From Gammaproteobacteria bacterium (GTDB taxonomy: Bacteria > Pseudomonadota > Gammaproteobacteria > Pseudomonadales > JAUIET01): DNA of 64,000 nucleotides. Numbering within the stretch: position 1 is the first letter of the stretch; each line of letters opens with the position of its first letter. Below, piece after piece: positions 4,394 to 55,682 of this stretch. Where the stretch lies: NCBI GenBank assembly GCA_030429735.1, contig JAUIET010000010.1, positions 62,001 through 126,000 on the forward strand, written 5' to 3'. The position numbers were made by a program, and so were the translations under genes. Below the pieces are notes generated by a model. It was not told the origin of the DNA and did not search any database. It saw only the letters and a list, made by a program, of their open reading frames with translations.

Positions 4394-5327
4394 GATTAAT
4401 AGGGTCAGGTCTTCAGTTTATGATTGTAATCCTATACAATGCGAGAAAAGGTAATAAGGGAACTGCCACAAAATGGCCCGGCCTCTGCGTCTGGAATTCT
4501 CTGGCGCGCTTTACCATGTAACCTCCCGCGGTGATCGCCGGGAAGCGATTTACGAAACCGCTGACGACTTTGAGCGCTTTCTACAAATATTGGATGGTGT
4601 TTGCGAGCAGCACAATTGGCTGTGTCATGCGTTTTGCTTGATGGACAATCATTACCACCTATTGATCGAAACGCCAGATGGTAATTTGTCCAAGGGGATG
4701 CGGCAGCTCAATGGCGTGTACACACAGTGGTTCAACAAACATCACAACCGGGTAGGCCACGTTTTTCAGGGGCGTTACAAAGCGATTCTGGTTGATAAGA
4801 ATGAGTATTTGCTGGAGCTGGCGCGGTATATTGTGCTCAACCCCGTTCGTGCCGGCATGGTGCGAGCAGCGAAGGACTGGCGCTGGAGCAGCTATCGCGC
4901 CACGGCGGGCATCGCCGTTGCTCGCAGCTGCCTGCACCGTGACGGGTTGCTGGCGGCATTTGGTAGGCGCAGATCGAAGGCAGAGGAGAGCTACAAGCGG
5001 TTTGTTGCCGCGGGTAAAGGCCAGCCCTCACCTTGGGCGATGCTGCGCAATCAGGTGTACTTGGGTGGCGAAGAATTTGTAGAACAGGTTCAGCAGCGCA
5101 TTGATGATGATAAAGACCTGAGCGAAATACCGTCATCTCAGCGCCGGCCAGTGCCTAAGCCGATCGGGTATTACGACAATGCCCATAAACACCGCAACGA
5201 CGCCATCGTTGCGGCCTACGGCAGTGGCGGGTACACACTAAAAGAGGTTGGCGACTACTTTGGTCTGCATTACTCTACGGTGAGCGGGATTATCAAGAAT
5301 CATAAATAGAAGACCTGACCCTATGCT
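4394..5327 (+). mobile_element. REP-associated tyrosine transposase element, copy 2
   Basis: The second copy of the 934-bp element, directly repeated relative to copy 1. Its 16-bp inverted repeats are at 4399-4414 and 5309-5324. The left end cuts the vapC-like gene. By eye it differs from copy 1 at four bases: two upstream of the transposase, one missense and one silent. Direct repeats of this length make loss of the intervening fic segment by recombination possible. Confidence 0.9.
4473..5309 (+). CDS. REP-associated tyrosine transposase, second copy
   Basis: 278 residues, identical to the copy at 1620-2456 except residue 31 (Asp here, Gly there). The HUH motif at 60-62, the ARYIVLNPVRA helix and the C-terminal HTH are all intact, so both copies could be active. 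Upstream sequence and ribosome-binding site are also shared. Residue 31 lies in the first helix, outside the catalytic motifs, so no functional difference is predicted. Confidence 0.92.
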   Translation: MARPLRLEFSGALYHVTSRGDRREAIYETADDFERFLQILDGVCEQHNWLCHAFCLMDNHYHLLIETPDGNLSKGMRQLNGVYTQWFNKHHNRVGHVFQGRYKAILVDKNEYLLELARYIVLNPVRAGMVRAAKDWRWSSYRATAGIAVARSCLHRDGLLAAFGRRRSKAEESYKRFVAAGKGQPSPWAMLRNQVYLGGEEFVEQVQQRIDDDKDLSEIPSSQRRPVPKPIGYYDNAHKHRNDAIVAAYGSGGYTLKEVGDYFGLHYSTVSGIIKNHK

Positions 5328-41785: not shown

Positions 41786-41892
41786 GGGCGGTGTGAATAG
41801 GGTTCGGCCCTGCAGCGAGGGCTTCGGTGCGAGTTTCTGATCACTGTATTCGAACACTTTCAGGACAAATGTGTATGTCATCGTGGCACTGA

Positions 41893-42004
41893 GGCATCAA
41901 ATGGACTCATGGCTTGCGGGACCGTTGAAAAGAGGGACCTTTTCAACGAGCCCCCATGGATGGGTTCACGGCGTGTCTCGCAAGCCATGAGTCCATTTGA
42001 TGCC
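41893..42004. repeat. Nested inverted-repeat element, copy A
   Basis: Outer arms 41893-41918 and 41979-42004 are perfectly complementary over 26 bp (GGCATCAAATGGACTC... on the left), and the stem extends inward by four more positions with one mismatch. Inside is a perfect 10-bp hairpin, CGTTGAAAAG / AGGGAC loop / CTTTTCAACG, at 41923-41948. Then comes AGCCCCCATGGATGGG, then ACGGCGTGTCT. The same core recurs at 55601-55658 inside different arms. It lies in the 425-bp gap between iscS and ndk, which has no other gene. Confidence 0.85.
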
Positions 42005-42109
42005 GGTCTTTCAAGCTGCACAATTCCAGAATTCTGATACCCACAATCCAATCTACGCAAACAGTGTCAGATTAAGCTACTCACGGTATGCCAAAGCACA
42101 AAAAGTCTT

Positions 42110-55572: not shown

Positions 55573-55682
55573 GAGGAATAGGGTGTAACGCAAATAAAGA
55601 CCATTGAAAAGAGGGACCTTTTCAATGAGCCCCCATGGATGGGTTTACGGCGTGTCTTTATTTGCGTTACACCCTATTCCTC
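55573..55682. repeat. Nested inverted-repeat element, copy B
   Basis: Outer arms 55573-55601 and 55654-55682 are perfectly complementary over 29 bp. Their sequence (GAGGAATAGGGTGTAACG... on the left) is unrelated to copy A. Inside is the shared core: CATTGAAAAG / AGGGAC loop / CTTTTCAATG (55602-55627), then AGCCCCCATGGATGGG, then TTTACGGCGTGTCT. Against copy A the second stem pair changes from G-C to A-T on both sides. It lies 35 bp before the start of the enoyl-CoA hydratase gene. Confidence 0.85.

Follow-up and report, generated by a model that had tools for sequence, protein, structure and literature searches.

The window, a stretch of 64,000 nucleotides, carries two copies, A and B, of an intergenic inverted-repeat element that an earlier sequence-only reading had picked out and that were recovered here. 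Copy A occupies positions 41893-42004, where arms GGC...GGAC and GTC...GCC form 30 pairs (one of them G.T) around a 52-nt core at 41923-41974. Copy B occupies positions 55573-55682 and consists of a 52-nt core inside 29 perfect pairs. The neighbours of copy A are a cysteine-desulfurase-like gene and ndk, and copy B lies ~35 nt ahead of the start codon of a crotonase-like gene (gene names assigned by eye). In a genome of the same genus (G001) the element is absent at site A, and at site B it is present in the opposite orientation. The features of both copies, with the evidence for each, are as follows.

41884-41892, + strand: left outer end TGGCACTGA, outside the stem (flank listing, by eye)
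41893-41922, + strand: copy A, 5′ arm of outer stem P1, 30 nt (arm parse, RNA fold, model match)
41923-41948, + strand: copy A, hairpin P2, with hexaloop AGGGAC at 41933-41938 (covariation alignment, RNA fold, model match)
41950-41972, + strand: copy A, hairpin P3, with hexaloop ATGGAT at 41956-41961 (covariation alignment, RNA fold, model match)
41975-42004, + strand: copy A, 3′ arm of P1 (arm parse, RNA fold)
42005-42010, + strand: right outer end GGTCTT (flank listing, by eye)
55573-55601, + strand: copy B, 5′ arm of P1, 29 nt (arm parse, RNA fold, model match)
55602-55653, + strand: copy B, core with P2 loop AGGGAC and P3 loop ATGGAT (covariation alignment, RNA fold, model match)
55654-55682, + strand: copy B, 3′ arm of P1 (arm parse, RNA fold)

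The covariance model of the family matches copy A at 41901-41996 (101.5 bits) and copy B at 55580-55675 (98.3 bits), and RNA folding of the two copies gives the family shape with z of -10.4 and -11.3, the opposite strand folding with about equal energy. One 13-mer of the core is present at two places in the window, while two matches were found in none of 100 shuffles, even with one mismatch allowed. The P2 pair reported to be G-C in one copy and A-T in the other is real. P3 of copy A displays an asymmetric internal loop, UUCAC, and closing pairs GCC/GGC; its loop is a hexaloop in the centroid fold and a four-base loop in the minimum-energy fold. The outer ends TGGCACTGA and GGTCTT recur by eye in the same or a similar form at many copies in this genome.

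A genome-wide search for the core revealed that A and B are two of dozens of copies. In this genome (G000) BLAST returned 36 rows, two of which are the arms of copy A matching each other, and the covariance model, with 150 candidates scored per genome, matched 34 places here, 83 in each of G279 and G057 and 121 in G056, the complete Stenotrophomonas maltophilia SJTL3 chromosome. Across the phylum, at least 22 of 299 sampled genomes, this one included, contain model matches, and all belong to the class of the window; these counts are lower bounds, obtained with stricter filters and 14 candidates scored per genome. At least 118 stretches in a collection of named genomes contain a 28-nt piece of the core without any mismatch, with hosts that include Stenotrophomonas, Xanthomonas, Marinobacter, Microbulbifer, Halopseudomonas, Shewanella, Alcanivorax and others. 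A search of 72,556 plasmid and 50,697 phage records with one 57-nt Stenotrophomonas core gave no match. One locus, G043:C1:94422-95646, holds a tandem array of six copies in one orientation with a spacing of ~228 bp.

That no described element follows this plan, as the first reading had suspected, agrees with the searches performed, in which no Rfam family was matched and no description was located in the literature searched. Rfam gave no match in the window at the gathering score, and eight loci examined with E up to 1 gave 13 matches, comprising tRNAs and weak unrelated families, with no CsrB/C or RsmX/Y/Z among them. Core words looked for in paper texts were found only as the variant CCAGGGATGGGTT, in seven unrelated medical papers, and a survey of stem-loop families names neither Xanthomonas nor Shewanella in the accessible part of its text (PMC2267715). 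The element is a widespread, real family of dispersed structured elements with no Rfam match or located description.

An alignment of 64 elements, drawn from 97 references and restricted to elements whose parsed arms cover 22 or more positions, displays a three-way junction in which a long outer stem (P1) closes two hairpins (P2 and P3). It comprises 38 pairs, 22 in P1, 10 in P2 and, in P3, 3 + 3 around the asymmetric internal loop. The selected stem proposed from copies A and B is borne out by strong covariation, with a score of 0.841 against 0.171 in 500 shuffles and 0.121-0.150 in slid controls. Paired cells amount to 94.2% versus 60.1% in shuffled alignments, the P1 part of this percentage being partly by construction because long-arm elements were chosen. 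Changes on both sides were observed at 33 of the 38 pairs (shuffled mean 28.9), while further pair types were no more numerous than in shuffles (114 versus 112.8). Arms of at least 12 bp, with a median of 27, were found in 203 of 232 distinct elements and at 11 of 438 control positions; the 232 had been picked by the 28-nt core pattern alone, with up to 5 substitutions and GGA required, and without selection on the arms. This pattern fixed P3, so that conservation of P3 is by construction except in diverged model matches. Among the diverged matches listed, the P3 stem varies (CCC/GGG, TAC/GTA, CAC/GTG, GCC/GGC) and the GGA loop is kept, the exception being the weakest (L347), where it is not.

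P2 lay outside the search pattern. GGA nevertheless stands in or beside the P2 loop in 168 of 170 elements, and 131 of 193 distinct cores have in P2 an ANGGAN hexaloop carried by a stem of 4 bp or more, an arrangement present in 4 of 1388 control windows of 27 nt. The remaining 62 loops are not exact hexaloops, 58 of them carrying GGA in another form and 4 lacking it. In the accessible text of a structural study of RsmE, the high-affinity CsrA/RsmE site is a hexaloop ANGGAX placed directly on a stem (PMC4005645), and the available part of a second source gives the CsrA SELEX consensus and the bridging of two sites 10-63 nt apart by one dimer (PMC7652899). Both sequence-level properties of CsrA/RsmA sites that were examined are displayed by the element: ANGGAX hexaloops seated on stems, and two sites at a published spacing, as the distance from GGA to GGA, start to start, has a median of 23 nt (range 23-45) in cores with the P2 hexaloop. 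It is on account of the ANGGAN loops and this spacing that CsrA/RsmA is named here. CsrA is present in all 33 carrier genomes searched. This comparison could only have counted against CsrA, and the co-occurrence says little, because CsrA was also found in 18 of 20 genomes taken as element-free, 13 of which were so classed by BLAST alone, a search that overlooks distant members, those of G015 among them. The latter genome, with at least 14 elements, has nine CsrA-family matches.

A G.T mismatch on one strand is an A.C mismatch on the other, and mismatches in P1 therefore bear on which strand folds. On the core-forward strand of 207 distinct stems, 48 of which are perfect, G.T exceeds A.C (190 versus 30) and G.A exceeds T.C (76 versus 11), with related copies counted as independent, and the excess of G.T over A.C recurs in all four gene contexts of a 105-stem subset. 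It is thus folding of the core-forward strand that has been kept. The molecule that folds must be RNA or single-stranded DNA, and the mismatch asymmetry fits both. No clear replichore bias of the folding strand was observed (20+/15- and 18+/27- in the two halves) among 80 listed of the 121 G056 copies, with base 1 assumed as the origin.

These properties argue that the family is probably a dispersed structured RNA element that, when transcribed, would bind CsrA/RsmA and may influence gene expression. The core-forward strand forms the three-way junction, in which a P1 of ~30 bp, free in sequence but paired, presents P2 and P3, each capped by an ANGGAN loop of the high-affinity CsrA/RsmA/RsmE form. 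A transcribed element may bind one CsrA dimer across its two GGA motifs ~23 nt apart, and the many copies could act as local CsrA landing sites and/or collectively as a diffuse titrator. Palindromes scattered through bacterial genomes are common, and for most of them no role is known; here it is the loops that stay constant, and they follow a well-studied RNA-protein code, so that the function is directly testable. If all 121 copies carry both loops and are transcribed, the S. maltophilia genome that holds them would have more than 200 CsrA sites outside known sRNAs. A more tentative proposal, for which we see perhaps one chance in three, is that the family has spread as a repeat to form a genome-wide antenna for CsrA, with tens to more than 100 RNA elements per genome, whose two-site pads would couple intergenic transcription to CsrA availability and would titrate CsrA in lineages, Xanthomonas for example, where no CsrB/RsmZ homologue has been found. 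Under this proposal the stems would be free to change because only pairing and loops matter.

The closest functional parallels are CsrB/CsrC and RsmX/Y/Z, likewise gammaproteobacterial RNAs with GGA in ANGGAN-type hairpin loops, several per RNA. They come from a single gene or a few genes, transcribed from promoters of their own, and carry many hairpins per RNA, while the element occurs in tens to more than 100 copies with two hairpins on a long closing stem, lacks a detected promoter in this genome and matches no Rfam family. RsmU of Xanthomonas campestris is an RNA with GGA motifs that binds RsmA, as predicted for the element, and is made from a 3′-UTR; in the accessible part of its description it is >90% identical across Xanthomonas and present in no other bacteria (PMC7694677). 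It is this published description, rather than a comparison of letters, that sets RsmU apart from the element.

The strongest competitor, although we judge it unlikely, at about one chance in four, is non-autonomous mobile DNA of MITE- or REP-like type, in which the folded single strand would be the substrate of a transposase or recombinase that reads the GGA loops, and the likeness to CsrA sites would be coincidental. Scattered copies, their presence or absence between species, and strand-specific folding with no clear replichore bias would all suit such an origin, as would the mismatch pattern, since G.T and G.A are the milder mismatches in DNA as well. The arrangement of neighbouring copies also points this way. 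Close pairs are back to back (-,+) in 16 of 16 cases among the 80 listed G056 copies (starts 227-334 bp apart), in 5 of 5 among 23 copies of this genome, of which 21 come from the 150-candidate listing and 2 from the phylum-wide search, and in 23 of 26 over all loci examined, the exceptions being L154 and L194 (+,-) and L117 (+,+). A placement of pairs between convergent genes was rejected, as both neighbours were called for 14 of the 23 (-,+) pairs and only 5 of these 14 are convergent. Against mobile DNA, none of 22 Y1_Tnp matches (7 of 8 genomes) has an element in its flanks of 1500 bases, fewer at contig ends, and G040 contains elements and no Y1_Tnp match; one Stenotrophomonas core is absent from the plasmid and phage records; no mobile unit of defined extent was observed; and the CsrA form of the loops is not predicted. 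A link to RAYT/REP systems was rejected on the same 22 matches, Y1 being the only transposase type searched. The window itself has two Y1-transposase genes (PF01797, RAYT/IS200-like) ~2.9 kb apart, at 1653-1979 and 4506-4832, each in a 283-aa open frame and with no element in the flanks examined.

The known repeat families share some of these traits. REP/BIME/REPIN sequences with RAYT are likewise dispersed palindromes that often form inverted pairs, and their hosts include Stenotrophomonas and Pseudomonas. REPs span 20-40 bp according to the accessible part of one source (PMC3733652). The element, in contrast, spans 110-150 nt, has a variable stem and constant loops, and was found near none of the Y1-transposase genes examined. 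ERIC, RU-1 and other stem-loop repeats are likewise intergenic imperfect palindromes, of ~100-170 nt. In the ERIC and RU-1 families the arms travel with the repeat, whereas copies of the element with identical cores have different arms.

The gene context bears on a third explanation, an ordinary mRNA-end structure, namely a 3′-UTR stabiliser or terminator, a role commonly ascribed to REP or ERIC. Context was assigned with a crude ORF caller, an earlier one that put 74 elements inside ORFs having been discarded; from 182 distinct elements, 50 were dropped for ORF overlap and 24 for missing or distant neighbours, leaving 108 classified. Over half of these (58 of 108) have a stop codon ~40 nt away on the right, which would suit an mRNA end, as would an intrinsic terminator seen by eye between two copies at the L167 locus. 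In these stop-codon cases, however, the folding strand is antisense to the right-hand gene and so opposite to the neighbouring mRNA, and terminator-like sites follow the folding strand downstream in only 2 of 197 elements, which makes this explanation improbable, at somewhat under one chance in ten. As regards transcription of the putative CsrA-binding element, no promoter excess on the folding strand was detected in this genome (26 elements, p 0.53), for which an own promoter was rejected, or in relatives (44 elements, p 0.75). An excess was observed in 92 named-contig elements (p 0.005) and in all 197 (p 0.0003), and may reflect base composition.

The arms had been taken for local sequence unique to each locus. 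Instead, they are the element's own P1, with a narrow length range (157 of the 203 parsed arms fall between 25 and 32 bp), outer ends that by eye are common to copies of one genus, and a weak consensus, the arms of this genome having a mean identity of 0.336 versus 0.256 when shuffled (26 arms). The arms are nevertheless specific to their locus, as the first reading had it, and seven copies in this genome combine an identical 52-nt core with different arms (L001, L002-, L004-, L005+, L006+, L007-, L008). A search of this genome with up to 3 mismatches located arm A at its two sites in copy A and nowhere else; a role of the arms as guides, or an origin as shared copies, was rejected on this basis, arm A being the sole arm searched.

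Between species, P1 offers a natural series for compensatory change among close relatives. At Stenotrophomonas locus 2 (query L171), 50 of 61 genomes were compared, together with two Xanthomonas loci, and 11 were left unused; by eye, 33 rows carry the element, 4 retain one arm, 1 holds a remnant and 14 lack it. Steps between arm types, counted along a spanning tree of the types and not a phylogeny, are 37 two-sided versus 5 one-sided at locus 2, and 0 versus 4 at a second element nearby. At locus 1 they are 4 versus 9, 2 of the 4 ending in a mismatch, a count that leaves out two larger edges with 10 and 11 two-sided and 0 one-sided steps. Many paired changes have no one-sided intermediate, and a G.T pair is created or lost in 11 of the 18 one-sided steps. 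Two supported pairs of sister rows, L269/L272 and L273/L274, are separated by nothing but paired changes, two in the first case and one in the second. Sisters L254/L264 have different arm types and differ over the whole intergenic stretch, which is likely to reflect allele replacement; other arm changes may have the same cause, because alleles A and B of locus 2 also differ over the whole stretch. At the L167 locus, L240 has an inverted core relative to L235 although the arms around it have hardly changed, L231 and L232 combine nearly equal arms with different P2 types, and L244, L247, L248 and L253 have lost or reduced copies or lack them. We read the stem as kept by selection for pairing, with template switching perhaps aiding paired change.

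The proposal that the arms are target sequence copied in inverted form is not supported, as orthologous arms at one locus are alignable and differ by paired substitutions, and empty outgroup sites are armless. None of 14 orthologous empty outgroup sites contains anything like the 20 arm types of the L171 locus, the best arm identity being 0.58-0.68 against averages of 0.62-0.66 for shuffled arms. Eight sites have a single arm (L244, L248, L253 twice and L321-L324), which fits the inverted-copy idea as well. Deletion is the simpler account at L321, since it sits inside a supported clade of carriers, while L253 may represent a pre-insertion state, as its flanks are the most diverged of its set. 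Of the suggested template switch, one part survives: switching may help to match the arms, given the missing intermediates and the L240/L235 inversion. Copying of target sequence is not needed to explain the arms, L253 being compatible with it. An insertion or template switch that copies its target inverted around a fixed core is therefore very improbable, since the locus-specific complementary arms, the single-arm sites, the paired changes of locus 2 and the inverted core that would fit it are opposed by the narrow stem-length range and shared outer ends, the weak consensus and the alignability of arms at one locus, the armless outgroup sites, and a G.T versus A.C asymmetry unexpected if copying alone had matched the arms.

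Several copies have been rearranged or interrupted. L265 is a broken element with a type B left arm and a type A right arm, apparently a recombinant of two alleles at one intergenic site. By eye, other hairpin-forming sequences are set into the element at L025, L026, L015, L020, L028, L242, L243, L246 and L317, and L207 contains ~1.3 kb of extra sequence with the look of an insertion sequence; the loops and stems of the element seem to serve as targets for other repeats.
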